Part shown: piece by piece, positions 12,064 to 18,371 of the stretch
Position numbering within the stretch: the first letter of the stretch is position 1
How the letters are laid out: the number at the start of each line of letters is the position of its first letter
From: a bacterium
Lineage (GTDB): Bacteria; Cyanobacteriota; Vampirovibrionia; Gastranaerophilales; Gastranaerophilaceae
Assembly (NCBI GenBank): GCA_017403285.1
Contig: JAFQOI010000015.1
Span: 1 to 37,778 of the forward strand
Length of the DNA: 37,778 bases
Direction of reading: 5' to 3'
Notes under the pieces: generated by a model
What the model saw: only the letters and a program-made list of their open reading frames with translations
The model's database searches: none
Told to the model about the DNA's origin: nothing
Made by a program: the position numbers and the translations under genes

Positions 12064-12564
12064 ATGGAATTAATTCTAAAGAAAGATGTACAAAATATCG
12101 GTGAAGCCGGTGATATAGTTAACGTAAAAGATGGTTATGCAAGAAATTTCTTATTGCCACAAAACTTTGCAGAAATTGCAACAAAAGGCGCTAAAGAAAA
12201 CAGAGAAAAAAATCTTGCTAGAATTAAAGCAAAACAAGAAAAATTACATGCTGAAGCATTAGAAAACGCAAAGAAAATAGAAGGAATTGGTGTTTTAGAA
12301 TTTTCAGCAAAAGCAGGTGAAAGCGGAAAATTATTTGGCGCAATTACTACAAAAAAACTTGCTGAAGAAATCAAAGCAAAATCAGGTGTTGAAGTTGACA
12401 GAAAAAATATTTCTCTAGACGCACCTGTTAATAAACTTGGCAAATTCAATATGCAAATCAAATTAACATCAAAAGTTAAAGTTGCGTTAGAAATCAACGT
12501 AACTGCTTCTGAAGTGTTGAAAGAAGAAATTGCTGAAACAGTTGAAGAAAATACTGAAGAATAG
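12064..12564 (+). CDS. rplI: 50S ribosomal protein L9 (bL9)
   Basis: L9 binds 23S rRNA domain V and extends from the ribosome, affecting frame maintenance. The 166 residues show the signature MELILKKDVQNIGEAGDIVNVKDGYARNFLLP, which is continuous over the N-domain, then the long connecting helix, then the C-domain with GKLFGAITTKKLAEEI. An acidic tail extends it slightly beyond the usual 150 residues. The Shine-Dalgarno AAGGAGA is strong. It is not next to rpsF or rpsR, its common partners. A structured region follows within 30 bp. Confidence 0.97.
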   Translation: MELILKKDVQNIGEAGDIVNVKDGYARNFLLPQNFAEIATKGAKENREKNLARIKAKQEKLHAEALENAKKIEGIGVLEFSAKAGESGKLFGAITTKKLAEEIKAKSGVEVDRKNISLDAPVNKLGKFNMQIKLTSKVKVALEINVTASEVLKEEIAETVEENTEE

Positions 12565-12591
12565 TATTATTAAGTAAAGAGGAAAATAACA

Positions 12592-12645
12592 ATGTCTTAC
12601 ATTCAAAATCGACGTTATAACAATAAAGGAGGCTTTATTATATAA
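12592..12645 (+). CDS. Possible 17-codon leader peptide
   Basis: ATG with an AGAGGA Shine-Dalgarno sequence nine bases upstream opens a 17-residue frame, MSYIQNRRYNNKGGFII. It starts 27 bp after rplI. The ORF lies inside a long inverted repeat, and its Gly-Gly codons contain AGGAGG, which can also pair with the terminator arm at 12691-12696. The Arg-Arg (CGA CGT) and Asn-Asn pairs are the obvious candidate stall sites if it acts as a leader. Translation is not proven. Confidence 0.4.
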   Translation: MSYIQNRRYNNKGGFII

Positions 12646-12662
12646 AGTATCGATTTTGATGT
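12599..12662 (+). promoter_or_regulatory. Long stem-loop with competing inner hairpins
   Basis: ACATTCAAAATCGA (12599-12612) pairs with TCGATTTTGATGT (12650-12662), giving about 13 bp with a single bulged U. Inside, AATAAAG (12622-12628) pairs perfectly with CTTTATT (12633-12639), leaving GAGG as the loop. The same CTTTAT can instead pair with ATAAAG (12642-12647). These mutually exclusive helices around a Shine-Dalgarno-like AGGAGG suggest a conformational switch. Confidence 0.5.
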
Positions 12663-12685
12663 AAAAAATTGTTACAATGATATAA

Positions 12686-12719
12686 AAAAACCTCCTGTTT
12701 TAGTCTTCAGGAGGTTTTT
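12686..12719 (+). terminator. Intrinsic terminator/attenuator with CCTCCT arm
   Basis: AAAACCTCCTG pairs with CAGGAGGTTTT around a 10-base loop and runs into U residues, a strong terminator. Its left arm CCTCCT (12691-12696) can also pair with AGGAGG at 12627-12632 upstream. The hairpin could therefore be part of an attenuator rather than a simple end of the rplI transcript. Confidence 0.85.
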
Positions 12720-12746
12720 AAATATAAAGAATGGAGTATGTAAGAT

Positions 12747-12830
12747 ATGAATAAAATTCGACGTAGATCTGAACAAAAGAAGGCAAATGCCCCATTTGTC
12801 AGATTAATGAATTTAGTTTGGGGCTTGTAA
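12747..12830 (+). CDS. Possible small basic protein (27 aa)
   Basis: ATG with GGAG ten bases upstream opens a 27-residue frame. The first half is very basic (MNKIRRRSEQKKAN) and the second is hydrophobic (APFVRLMNLVWGL). It ends 22 bp before the next gene. Its coding DNA includes a perfect small hairpin, CAAATG-CCC-CATTTG (12784-12798), and an alternative GCCCCA/TGGGGC pairing (12789-12794/12819-12824). It resembles no family I know. It could be a real small peptide, a leader of the following gene, or chance. Confidence 0.35.
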   Translation: MNKIRRRSEQKKANAPFVRLMNLVWGL

Positions 12831-12852: not shown

Positions 12853-14220
12853 ATGTCAATACAAGCTATAACTACAAAAGTAGTTTCAACTCTAGGGAAT
12901 AAGGATTCACTTATTCCAATAATGATAAAAGATGGTGTAGATTCAACCAGTTTAACCTTAAAGTCATTCAAAGAAGGTGGACCAGTAGAAGGTATAGATA
13001 GAGCAATAGATGAGTTTGGCACACAAGCCATATGGATTGGTGGCATTCCATTTTTTAAAAAACTCATTGATGTAACAGCATATAAAAAAGCAAAAATAAA
13101 CCCACTCGTTGACCCAAGAATCATAGCAAATGAAGAATATGCAAAATGGGCAACAGAAAATGCAAATGGACTTATGAACAACAGCAAAGTCCAAACCGTA
13201 AAATCAGCATTAACTGATGCTCTTAAAGATGGGGGAAACCTTGCGAAAAACTTATACAAAGGTAAAGTAATTGCCGCAACAGCATTGACTCTTGCTGCAT
13301 TTTTTACACTAACAAAAATAAAACAAAAAAGAACAAAAGACACAACAATCAACGAATTAATTGCTTTAAAAAAACATGAATCAACGAAATACAATCAAGA
13401 TATATTTTTAAAAGAATCTACTAGCACAGTTTTTAAGGATATAAATGATAAATTTATCAACAACACGTCAAATCCTTCTTTCAAAGGAACAATGAAAAAT
13501 GTTGTTGATGCGATAATGTTCAATCCTGTACACAATATGAAAGTTATTGATGCTGGTATAACAACAGAAAGACTTGTATGTTCAAGAAATGCAACAGAAT
13601 TTGTTGAACACGGAATTAAAGAAGGTATATTCTTATTCTTCATTTACGGATTTGGAAATCTAATCGAAAAAGGCATAAACAATTTATCAGAAAAAGTTCT
13701 TAAAAAGCCTATTGATTTGAAAATTGATGTATTAATGGATGATGAATTAAAGAAAATTTTATCATCCGGAAAAATCGCAGAACAAGTAGCAAAAATGCCT
13801 GCAGCAGATAAATCTTTAACAGAAAAATTAAGTTTTATCTCACAAAATCCAGACAACATTATTGTAAAAGCAGCAAAAAAATCAGGTATTGTTGGAACAG
13901 TAAAAGATAAAGCTGGCAACATATTTGTTGACACATCAAAATACATTGATACAAAAGAAGTAGAAGCATTAGCAGAAAAACTTTTAAATATAGATAATAA
14001 ATTCAAAGCTTCTGGTGAAACAGTTGAAAAATTCCTTTCAAAAACAAAAGGTTTGAAAGTTCTTTCTACAACAGCAAATATAGCAATTTCTTGTTTTGTT
14101 CTTGGTTTTGTAATACCTAAATTAATATATGCATACAGAGAATGGAAAACAGGTAGTACGAAGTTTCACGTCACAGAAGATATAAAAAACAATCACAATA
14201 AAAAAGAGAAAAAGGCATAA
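12853..14220 (+). CDS. Hypothetical membrane protein (455 aa)
   Basis: I do not recognise this protein. It has likely transmembrane segments at about 138-156, 258-274 and 405-428, and a basic C-terminal tail rich in Asn, Lys and His. No Sec signal peptide is visible, so the N-terminal 135 residues are probably cytoplasmic. A central block includes NPSFKGTMKNVVDAIMFNP (207-225). A good AAAGGAAAG site precedes the ATG. Two small ORFs and a terminator precede it, and its own terminator overlaps the stop codon, so it is probably its own transcription unit. No enzyme motif is seen. Confidence 0.8.
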   Translation: MSIQAITTKVVSTLGNKDSLIPIMIKDGVDSTSLTLKSFKEGGPVEGIDRAIDEFGTQAIWIGGIPFFKKLIDVTAYKKAKINPLVDPRIIANEEYAKWATENANGLMNNSKVQTVKSALTDALKDGGNLAKNLYKGKVIAATALTLAAFFTLTKIKQKRTKDTTINELIALKKHESTKYNQDIFLKESTSTVFKDINDKFINNTSNPSFKGTMKNVVDAIMFNPVHNMKVIDAGITTERLVCSRNATEFVEHGIKEGIFLFFIYGFGNLIEKGINNLSEKVLKKPIDLKIDVLMDDELKKILSSGKIAEQVAKMPAADKSLTEKLSFISQNPDNIIVKAAKKSGIVGTVKDKAGNIFVDTSKYIDTKEVEALAEKLLNIDNKFKASGETVEKFLSKTKGLKVLSTTANIAISCFVLGFVIPKLIYAYREWKTGSTKFHVTEDIKNNHNKKEKKA

Positions 14221-14276: not shown

Positions 14277-15245
14277 TTGCGCTATAAAAGCTGTTACTGG
14301 ATAGAATCTGGAATAAATTTTGATATTGATGCATATAAAGTATGTTGTCTTTACAGTGCAAAAGGCGGGGGAAATACCATTATTGAAGACAATTACAAAG
14401 GGAAACCAATCAATTGGGATAAAGTCTTTGCTTTCAAAAAAATGATGAAAGACCTTCATAAAAATGGCAAAACGTATCCAAAATGTGAAGGATGTATTTT
14501 TCTTGAAGAACGAGATTGGGATGATGACCATTCAAAAATAAGTATGATAAATCTTGATTATTGGACAAAATGTAATTCAGAATGTTCTTATTGCCACACA
14601 ATGAAGGATAAAAAGAGATATAACAGTTTCAAAAACTACAATTTCCTTCCAATATTAAAAGATATGATAAAAAGAGACATTTTAAGACCCAATGGGCACG
14701 TCAGTTTTGGCGGAGGAGAAGTTACTCTTTTAAAAGAATTTGATAAACTTTTAAATATTTTTATGGATTTTGGATTCCCACTTACAAGAATACATTCTTC
14801 TGCAATATTATACTCAAAAGCAGTTGAAAAAGGGTTAAAGCAAGGCTGTGTTGACTTAATCGTATCAATAGATGCAGGTTCAAAAGAAATGCATAAAAAA
14901 GTTAAAGGTGTTTCGTCATATGACAAAGTATGGAAAAATCTAAAAAAATACAGTTCAGTACAAAAGGACCCATTCGCAGTAAAAACAAAATATATACTCA
15001 TTCCAGAGGTTAATGATACACATGAAGAAATAGATTTATGGCTAAAAAAAACAAAGGAAGCCGGGATAAATTGCGTTTTACATGAAATAGAATCAAAATG
15101 GTTTTATGCAAGAAGAGATAATGTCCCAGATGACATTATAGAATTCTTTACTTATGCAAAATCAAAAGCAGAAGAACTTGGACTTAAGTATGAATTATAC
15201 GAAAGAGCCGAGCATATGATGAAATTTTACGAGGAAAAAACCTAA
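14277..15245 (+). CDS. Radical SAM protein with N-terminal cysteine-rich (twitch/SPASM-like) domain, copy 1
   Basis: This 322-residue protein carries the radical SAM motif CNSECSYC (C99, C103, C106), which binds a [4Fe-4S] cluster and SAM, and a GGE motif in FGGGEVT (144-150). Before that, C6, the C23-C24 pair and CEGC (C70, C73) resemble a twitch/SPASM auxiliary-cluster domain, here N-terminal rather than C-terminal. The arrangement recalls the N-terminal-twitch radical SAM group (inference). It starts at TTG with AAAGGGG eight bases upstream. It overlaps the next paralogue by one base. The substrate is unknown; peptide, sugar or nucleotide-sugar modification are all possible. Confidence 0.85.
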   Translation: MRYKSCYWIESGINFDIDAYKVCCLYSAKGGGNTIIEDNYKGKPINWDKVFAFKKMMKDLHKNGKTYPKCEGCIFLEERDWDDDHSKISMINLDYWTKCNSECSYCHTMKDKKRYNSFKNYNFLPILKDMIKRDILRPNGHVSFGGGEVTLLKEFDKLLNIFMDFGFPLTRIHSSAILYSKAVEKGLKQGCVDLIVSIDAGSKEMHKKVKGVSSYDKVWKNLKKYSSVQKDPFAVKTKYILIPEVNDTHEEIDLWLKKTKEAGINCVLHEIESKWFYARRDNVPDDIIEFFTYAKSKAEELGLKYELYERAEHMMKFYEEKT

Positions 15246-16228
15246 TGCAAGAATATACAAGTTGTCACTGGCTACAACACGGATTAAGTTTTGAAAACGA
15301 CCATATAGAAATGTGCTGTTTGTGCTGCCATAAAGGAGGCGGAAGACTTAATATAAAAGATTATTATGATGGTAAAAATGTGAGTTGGGATGATATTTTT
15401 GCAAGCAAAGAAAAATTTATTGAAGAAAACAAAAATAATCTCGTTGATAAAAGATGTGAAGGATGTTTCAATCTTGTATATAGAGGCTGGGATGACAGCG
15501 AAAAATATATAAATTATATTCACTTCAACCACTGGACACACTGTAATAGTGATTGTATTTATTGCTACACGTCATGGGACAAAGAAAATTATCAAAAACG
15601 TCCACATTATAATGTATTACCGATGATAAAGGATTTATTCAAGAAAAAACTGTTTCGACCAGGAGGAGAAATAACTTTTGCTGGTGGAGAACCAACGATA
15701 TTGAAGGAATTTGATGAACTTACAACATTCCTAATTAAAAATGGTGCAGATAGAATTACTGTTCATTCATCTGGTATAAAATTTTCAAAGGCAATTGAAA
15801 AGGGTATAAAAGAAGGGGTCCTTCATGTTTGCTTAAGTGCTGACTCAGGAACAAGAGAAACATACAACAAGGTAAAAAGAGTAGATAAATTTGATAAATT
15901 TTGGGAAAACGCAAAAAAATATGCAAAAGCACAAAAAGATTTTTCAAAAGCACTTGTCGAAACAAAATTCGTACTCATTCCTGAAATAAATACGACAAAA
16001 GAAGAAATAGATAAATGGCTTGAATTAAACGTAAAAAATGGTATTAAGTTTGTAGTTGTTGATATTGAAAACGATTATTGTCGTGATTTGAGAGCAAAAA
16101 ACATTGAAAAACCTAAATATTTGATTGACTTATGTGCATATATCATAGAAAGAACAAAAGAATTAGGTTTACAATTAATTGACTATAATAATTTTAGGTA
16201 TTTAACAGAAGAATACAATCTAATATAG
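15245..16228 (+). CDS. Radical SAM protein with N-terminal cysteine-rich domain, copy 2
   Basis: This 327-residue tandem paralogue of the preceding gene has the radical SAM motif CNSDCIYC (C100, C104, C107) and FAGGEPT about 40 residues later. The N-terminal domain has C7, a denser CCLCC cluster (C24-C28, four cysteines) and CEGC (C71, C74). Shared blocks with its neighbours are SWDDIF, RGWDD and the HSSGIKFSKAIEKGIKEG region. Translation is coupled to copy 1 through TAATG. The conserved Cys layout suggests at least one auxiliary cluster. The substrate is unknown. Confidence 0.86.
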   Translation: MQEYTSCHWLQHGLSFENDHIEMCCLCCHKGGGRLNIKDYYDGKNVSWDDIFASKEKFIEENKNNLVDKRCEGCFNLVYRGWDDSEKYINYIHFNHWTHCNSDCIYCYTSWDKENYQKRPHYNVLPMIKDLFKKKLFRPGGEITFAGGEPTILKEFDELTTFLIKNGADRITVHSSGIKFSKAIEKGIKEGVLHVCLSADSGTRETYNKVKRVDKFDKFWENAKKYAKAQKDFSKALVETKFVLIPEINTTKEEIDKWLELNVKNGIKFVVVDIENDYCRDLRAKNIEKPKYLIDLCAYIIERTKELGLQLIDYNNFRYLTEEYNLI

Positions 16229-16237
16229 GGGATAAAA

Positions 16238-17233
16238 TTGAAGAAGTTTGAAAGTTGTGGATATATTGAACACGGAATGGTTTTAGACCATTGCAATATT
16301 ATTCGCCATTGCAATAACTTTAATCCTAGGTATGATGGACGTCCTATTATATATGAAAACTATAAAGGACAAAAAATTGATTGGAAAGAATTTTTTGAGA
16401 TAAAAAGAAATTTAAGAAAATTATTTAGAGAAAATTCATGCCCAAAACAATGCACTGAATGCGTTGGCATTGCTTATAAAGAATGGGATGATGATGATTA
16501 TATTGATTATTTGCTTTTGACACCATGGGTTCCTTGCAATTCAAAGTGCATATATTGCGAAGCCCCAAGAAATGAACACGTTTTAAAAAATACAAAAATT
16601 TATAAAATTCTTCCGCTAATAAAAGATATGATTAGGAATAAAATTTTAATCAAAGAAGCAACTATTGATTTTGCTGGGGGAGAACCTACAATTTATTCAG
16701 AATTTGAATCACTATTGAATGAATTTATTAGAAATGATTATAAGAAAATTATTGTACATACAAATGCAATTAAAAAAAGTAGGTCAGTAATAAAAGGATT
16801 AAAAAAAGGTTGCGTTAGAGTTTTAGTTTCAATTGATGCTGGTTCAAAAGAAATGCACAAAAAAATAAAACAAGTTAATTCTTATGATTCTGTCTGGAAC
16901 AATTTAAAAGAATACGCAAAAAACCAGCCAAAAGATGCTGATTTTGTAAAAGCAAAATATATAATCGTACCAGAAGTAAATGACAGTGAACAAGAAATAA
17001 ATATTTGGCTAAATAGATGCAAAGAAATAAACATAAAAAGTGTTGTGCTTAATCTAGATTTTAATTGGATTATGAAAAATGTTGATGGCAATCTTTTACC
17101 AATTTATAATCTGATGAAATATACACAAAAAAGAGCAAAAGAACTAGGAATAAACTGTGAATTATACGGACAAATTTTCCAAGTAAAATGTGAAATAGAA
17201 CAATCAAGAGAAGAAAATATAGCCGGATTTTAA
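16238..17233 (+). CDS. Radical SAM protein with N-terminal cysteine-rich domain, copy 3 (divergent)
   Basis: This third, 331-residue tandem paralogue starts at TTG after TAGGGG, nine bases after copy 2. The radical SAM motif is CNSKCIYC (C100, C104, C107), followed by FAGGEPT and the SIDAGSKEMHKKIK block shared with copy 1. Its N-terminal domain is altered: C7, C19, C25, C68 and CTEC (C72, C75), with the adjacent CC pair and the GGG of copies 1 and 2 replaced (RHCNNFNPR). This suggests a different or lost auxiliary cluster, or a different substrate. The last codons form part of the terminator palindrome. Confidence 0.85.
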   Translation: MKKFESCGYIEHGMVLDHCNIIRHCNNFNPRYDGRPIIYENYKGQKIDWKEFFEIKRNLRKLFRENSCPKQCTECVGIAYKEWDDDDYIDYLLLTPWVPCNSKCIYCEAPRNEHVLKNTKIYKILPLIKDMIRNKILIKEATIDFAGGEPTIYSEFESLLNEFIRNDYKKIIVHTNAIKKSRSVIKGLKKGCVRVLVSIDAGSKEMHKKIKQVNSYDSVWNNLKEYAKNQPKDADFVKAKYIIVPEVNDSEQEINIWLNRCKEINIKSVVLNLDFNWIMKNVDGNLLPIYNLMKYTQKRAKELGINCELYGQIFQVKCEIEQSREENIAGF

Positions 17234-18112: not shown

Positions 18113-18371
18113 TGCCGTGCTCCACGGGGACATTGCGGATCTCTCGACCCGAACGCATAGCGGGGTGCAGAGCCTACTGTGAGGCACTTGTCAATACGGC
18201 AGACTTTATTAGCATTGTTGATAGTAAAGGTATTTATGGCATAGACCATCGAACCGTGTCAGGATGGGAACGTAGCAGCACTAAGGTGTAATCTATGGGT
18301 GTAATTATCTTTAAAGTAGATGTTAGTATAGAAAACCTTATTGGCTTGTATCGATAGGTAGTGGCACGGTA
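18113..18371 (+). ncRNA. ffs: Signal recognition particle RNA, large bacterial type
   Basis: The SRP RNA scaffolds Ffh for co-translational targeting to the membrane. The conserved helix-8 core is at about 18258-18280: CAGG-ATG-GGAA-CGT-AGCAGC, a GGAA tetraloop with the asymmetric-loop AGCAGC, preceded by GAACCGTGT and followed by ACTAAGG. The 5' part (GCCGTGCTCCACGGGG... ACCCGAACGCATAGCGGGGT) matches the Alu domain of long SRP RNAs as in Bacillus. GCCGTGC (18114-18120) pairs with GCACGG (18364-18369), closing a molecule of about 258 nt. A promoter and a terminator flank it exactly. Confidence 0.93.

Follow-up and report, generated by a model that had tools for sequence, protein, structure and literature searches.

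The nearest described case to the element reported here is the speF leader of Salmonella, in which a short upstream ORF (ORF34/SpeFL) carries two consecutive arginine codons whose decoding speed selects the fold of the mRNA, and in which regulation also worked with CGACGA (PMC6386406). Control there is exerted through Rho, RNase G decay and the ribosome binding site, ahead of ornithine decarboxylase. In the present locus the terminator is intrinsic, the sequences are unrelated, the target is an uncharacterised membrane protein, and a further Arg-Arg ORF follows. The HIRRT-like core of SpeFL/ORF34 (DUF2618) is absent from the ORF1 peptide, and the target gene is unrelated to speF. Attenuators of the trp/his/ilv type (e.g., ilvBNC, PMC11857589) likewise have a leader peptide and a choice between terminator and antiterminator set by ribosome position; in contrast to these, the present locus has a pair of control codons and no long run, its target is not a biosynthesis operon, and its leader strand copies the right arm of the terminator. 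Ribosome-mediated attenuation of a gene outside amino-acid synthesis has been described for bmrCD of Bacillus subtilis (PMC4191407) and for the MsrD leader (PMC10314930). Both are antibiotic-responsive, while here there is no antibiotic gene and the Arg codon pair is constant.

Literature searches joining Gastranaerophilales with leader peptides or riboswitches found nothing, and those on ribosome-mediated attenuation and cyanobacteria returned general papers only, with no such attenuator in the phylum. The arrangement seems to be undescribed. If the reading given below is true, this would be a ribosome-mediated attenuator conserved order-wide in uncultured gut bacteria, of a phylum for which none is reported in the literature searched, and control by arginine decoding would be the first functional clue to an otherwise unannotated membrane protein.

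Layout of the locus

The window, meaning the whole stretch of DNA analysed (37,778 nucleotides), forms a single contig in the draft genome of a gut Candidatus Gastranaerophilales; the Gastranaerophilales are uncultured gut bacteria that do not photosynthesise and belong to the cyanobacterial phylum. Along the locus, rplI (12064-12564) is followed by a leader ORF (ORF1), hairpins, an intrinsic terminator, a second small ORF (ORF2) and a 455-aa ORF (Table 1). A sequence-only reading of this DNA had proposed an attenuator after rplI, built from a 17-codon leader ORF with a ribosome binding site, a 13-bp inverted repeat, and two copies of AGGAGG with one CCTCCT. All of these sequences are present where stated, the ORF at 12592-12645 with AGAGGA upstream, AGGAGG at 12627 and 12709, and CCTCCT at 12691, although the inverted repeat is slightly longer than described and has one bulge. 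The two inner hairpins, AATAAAG/CTTTATT (12622/12633) and CTTTAT/ATAAAG (12633/12642), are mutually exclusive as had been noted, one strand being common to both; the latter is conserved, whereas the former is lineage-specific. ORF1 is presumably translated, and comparison and modelling suggest that the element is probably a ribosome-mediated transcription attenuator of the 12853-14220 gene, with an arginine-codon control site.

Table 1. Coordinates of sequence features at the locus (window positions).
Feature	Position	Strand	Basis or remark
Candidate promoter TTGAAG-17-TATTAT, 3' end of rplI	12542-12570	+	9/12 matches, not above shuffles; presumed leader RNA start
ORF1 ribosome binding site AGAGGA	12578-12583	+	sequence
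ORF1 leader peptide MSYIQNRRYNNKGGFII and stop, 17 codons	12592-12645	+	sequence; comparison across genus
Stem A (outer leader hairpin), 5' arm, TTACATTCAAAATCGA	12597-12612	+	folding; covariation
Control codons CGA CGT (Arg-Arg) in ORF1	12610-12615	+	codon conservation in genus and order
Alternative hairpin AATAAAG/CTTTATT, lineage-specific	12622-12639	+	folding
Antiterminator 5' strand AGGAGGCUUU, mimics terminator 3' arm; includes AGGAGG 12627-12632	12627-12636	+	comparison and modelling
Inner hairpin CTTTAT/ATAAAG (UACGAU/AUCGUA in relatives)	12633-12647	+	genus alignment
Stem A (outer leader hairpin), 3' arm, TCGATTTTGATGTAA	12650-12664	+	folding; covariation
Terminator left arm, also antiterminator 3' strand (CCTCCT 12691-12696)	12686-12697	+	folding; covariation
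Terminator right arm (AGGAGG 12709-12714) and U-tract	12708-12719	+	folding; covariation
ORF2, second small ORF with CGA CGT, MNKIRRRSEQKKANAPFVRLMNLVWGL and stop	12747-12830	+	comparison across gene family
Hairpin within ORF2, GGCAAA/TTTGTC	12782-12800	+	covariation
Rival pairing in ORF2, GCCCCA (12789-12794)/TGGGGC (12819-12824)	12789-12824	+	pairing analysis
Putative regulated gene, 455-aa membrane protein without known family	12853-14220	+	database and structure searches; comparison

The segment 12565-12730 folds at -43.9 kcal/mol, compared with -20.8 +/- 3.2 for dinucleotide shuffles (z -7.2). By DNA search the element is single-copy in its own genome, and no Rfam family matched it above the gathering threshold; low-scoring matches were discounted as chance. 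Terminators resembling AAAGCC...GGCTTT are common within the genus, and of 39 unrelated background terminators, 5 equal the cognate terminator in their pairing with the window leader. For this reason leader/terminator complementarity in a single genome is weak evidence, and it is the comparative data that carry the case. On the minus strand, within the leader hairpin (12665-12637), there is a promoter-like TTTACA-17-TATAAT (11/12 matches) that is absent from one relative checked by eye.

Conservation and co-adaptation

A covariance model matched 35 of the 41 genomes of the genus, once in each (78-127 bits), and in most same-genus genomes the element lies 3' of rplI. Across 27 aligned copies CAAA-TCGACG and GGAGGCTTTA are common, and the terminator AAAGCCTTCT...AGAAGGCTTT is found in most. 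At the loci inspected, the element stands directly in front of the 455-aa gene. In G022 and G009, gene and element occur together at another site, away from rplI, and the element is missing from genomes that have no close orthologue of the gene (G010, G026 and G060, among others). Since it is found with the gene away from rplI and is missing where a close copy is missing, the element belongs to the 455-aa gene. The attenuator proposed from the sequence is supported, with the refinement that it goes with this gene and not with rplI.

The same layout, made of other sequences, is found upstream of 455-aa homologues across numerous genera, with two or more further families among them. It consists of an Arg-Arg or Lys-Arg leader ORF, a segment complementary to the left arm of the terminator, the terminator, and ORF2; leader and terminator were both present in 76 of the 82 sequences examined. 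The leader segment and left arm are, for example, GGGACTTG with CAAGACCC (L213), GGAAGG with CCTTCC (L084), and GAGGCTTT with AAAGCCTC (L086), and a leader pairing that many lineages have remade from different sequences would make a good natural series for the study of antiterminator evolution. At L193, L209 and L219 the element lies 3' of a tRNA gene, not of rplI. Among the weak covariance-model matches (~30-50 bits), those retrieved from other genera had the gene downstream in several cases and lacked it in others.

Stem A covaries in the genus alignment (column 15-83 is AU 12, UA 7, CG 2), and double-change cells over the whole structure number 44, compared with 17.5 for shuffles. The intrinsic terminator upstream of the gene (11 pairs) also covaries, with 100% of cells paired. 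No covariation of the antiterminator was found inside the genus, where its strand is nearly invariant (94% paired), so other clades were used; outside the genus it covaries (one pair is CG 9, UA 6, UG 1, with 97% of cells paired) in an alignment drawn mainly from the MRIRKYQKRQFYTN clade. When partners were permuted among 22 leader classes, with the terminator arm set by hand at four loci where the automatic finder had picked the wrong hairpin, the energy between cognate leader and terminator arm averaged -15.7 kcal/mol, against -10.4 (sd 0.63) for permuted partners (0 of 20,000 permutations). Judging from these sequence comparisons, leader/terminator pairs have co-evolved. Pairing, co-adaptation and covariation agree that the antiterminator and the terminator are mutually exclusive, and the competition of AGGAGG 12627-12632 with the terminator right arm for CCTCCT, first noted in the window sequence, is supported by the co-adaptation and by the covariation outside the genus. 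Conservation and covariation of the alternative helices had been set beforehand as the check on the sequence-only reading; the layout proved order-wide, with covariation of stem A and, outside the genus, of the antiterminator. The RNA logic of the attenuator is strongly supported.

Other genera (L187, L193, L211) have a conserved ~110-nt spacer between terminator and ORF2, with the sequence TTGTTACAAAA...GTAAAA...AGCACA or GCAATT...TTCAG...ACATTAA, which is missing in the genus of the window; paralogues such as L082 and L083 have a similar TTGTAACAAAA..TAACAA upstream of ORF2. In some genera (L201, L204, L212), ORF1 starts only ~6-8 nt past a TATAAT box, and the mRNA may be leaderless.

Control codons and ribosome position

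The second control codon is CGN in 76 of 76 loci of the order, and the first is Lys in one clade; the pairs are CGA-CGT (29), CGA-CGC (17), CGA-CGA (13), AAR-CGN (16) and AGA-CGA (1). Within the genus, the first codon is CGA in 33 of 33 leaders and the second is CGT or CGC in all 33, the only exchange being the silent one between these two, and Arg-Arg stands in frame exactly four codons before GGF in every leader (Q-x-R-R-4 codons-GGF, 33/33). Arginine in the window's long ORFs is encoded by AGA in 283 of 407 cases (CGT 60, CGA 30, AGG 27, CGC 7, CGG 0), and in-frame CGACG never occurs in them. Among the tRNAs found in the genome there is one tRNA-Arg gene each for ACG, TCT, CCT and CCG; by wobble rules, CGA, CGC and CGT would all depend on the single tRNA-Arg(ACG). 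The control run of ORF1 is just two tandem codons, where a run of Arg codons would otherwise be expected for an arginine attenuator, and the 455-aa gene has no known link to arginine, which counts against the arginine reading.

To model the effect of ribosome position, the ribosome footprint was masked and the RNA folded as far as the terminator loop; the footprint was assumed to reach 15 nt to each side of the first base in the P site. For a stall that places the first codon of the Arg pair in the A site, pairing between left arm and leader was predicted at 72 of 72 loci, and for one with the second codon there at 71 of 72; for a ribosome standing on the stop codon, the antiterminator was predicted in 2 of 72. 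Without a ribosome, this pairing varied among loci. The predicted antiterminator values for the window were 0.77 with the ribosome stalled at Arg-Arg, 0.00 at the stop codon and 0.00 without a ribosome, consistent with the earlier proposals that a ribosome at the leader end would allow termination and that an early stall at Arg-Arg would favour the antiterminator. In a codon-by-codon scan, the permissive zone ended +1 to +2 codons (P-site) from the Arg pair, and in the MKGL clade it spanned only about -4 to +1. For the MRIRKYQKRQFYTN clade, the model predicts antitermination without a ribosome too, which counts against the attenuator reading. In the full-length RNA the terminator was favoured on average at every ribosome position, so the switch must be kinetic.

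From comparison and modelling together the attenuator reading is well supported, and it may be envisaged as follows. The polymerase would transcribe ORF1 and a ribosome would translate it. If the Arg pair (CGA-CGN) is read fast, the ribosome would reach the stop codon and cover AGGAGGCUUU, the terminator (12686-12719) would form and transcription would end. If there is little charged tRNA-Arg(ACG), a ribosome slowed or stalled on the Arg codons would block stem A and leave AGGAGGCUUU just clear; the free strand could then pair with the terminator left arm ahead of synthesis of the right arm, so that the polymerase would read on into ORF2 and the gene. If there is no translation, the leader hairpins would hold AGGAGGCUUU and the terminator would form. 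The stalling, the supply of arginine or tRNA-Arg as its signal and the resulting read-through are what we infer from these patterns, as are the function of the target and any physiological role.

It is also conceivable, though unlikely, that the same attenuator responds to arrest of the ribosome by the nascent peptide, with arginine, ornithine, a polyamine or an antibiotic as ligand, and not to a shortage of charged tRNA-Arg. Leader peptides with an Arg-Arg core are known in regulation, as in the speF leader (PMC6386406), and Q or N often stands one or two residues before the Arg pair. Between genera, however, the peptide is not conserved beyond the basic pair (QNRRY, YQKRQFYTN, QLRRLANN, QIRRIVRTMKGL), the residues near the pair are accounted for by RNA stems, and the second position is always CGN and never AGA, which points to codons.

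Two further explanations were weighed. One is a plain rplI terminator with conserved small proteins after it, the alternative pairings being coincidental; such a terminator would end the rplI transcripts in the window and would fit the abundance of GGCTTT-type terminators, including the 5 of 39 that pair equally well. The comparative data already speak against this explanation and we regard it as very improbable, since the element goes with the membrane-protein gene and not with rplI, cognate pairing exceeds permuted pairing in the 22 classes, and there are compensatory changes. Hardly credible at all is a protein- or ligand-binding leader (e.g., L9 autoregulation or a riboswitch) in which leader translation plays no role. 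Such a leader would agree with the stable conserved hairpins and with the adjoining rplI in the genus, yet rplI does not adjoin the element at the loci next to tRNA genes, there is no Rfam match, and the conserved ORF, the in-frame Arg pair and the fixed spacing would be left unexplained. Autoregulation of rplI itself was rejected, as the element moves with the membrane-protein gene.

ORF2 and the membrane-protein family

Almost every locus of the gene family, also among the paralogues, has ahead of it an ORF2 that ends in NLxWGL and a stop codon, or in a close variant; ORF2 contains CGACGA in most loci, and one further match to its C-terminal pattern was found elsewhere in the genome. In the paralogues, which mostly adjoin yidD, ORF2 is kept and neither attenuator nor Arg-Arg was seen. 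The ORF2 hairpin GGCAAA/TTTGTC covaries (pair 6-18 is GC 19, AU 17, UA 2) and excludes the GCCCC/GGGGC pairing. A two-stage arginine-codon sensor peculiar to the Gastranaerophilales is a tentative possibility, on balance somewhat doubtful, in which ORF1 would attenuate transcription and ORF2 (CGACGN, hairpin versus GCCCC/GGGGC) would control translation of the membrane protein, both reading the decoding speed of the single tRNA-Arg(ACG).

Of the 286 genomes of the order, 261 carry a homologue of the 455-aa protein. The predicted model (pLDDT 75) has long helices, including likely membrane spans. The protein had no Pfam, NCBIfam or PDB sequence match above cut-off, and comparing the predicted model with PDB folds gave no hit of E < 0.1; weak matches to proton pyrophosphatase lay far below cut-off. 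Some homologues (G142:C16, G190:C3, G009:C7) have one in-frame stop each, which may mark pseudogenes or errors of assembly. In the window, the 455-aa gene is followed (14277-17233) by three consecutive related radical-SAM-like genes (the Pfam match was tested on the first), and at L012 a radical-SAM-like gene directly follows rplI. A large bacterial SRP RNA (Rfam RF01854, 80.9 bits) lies at 18115-18369 of the window.
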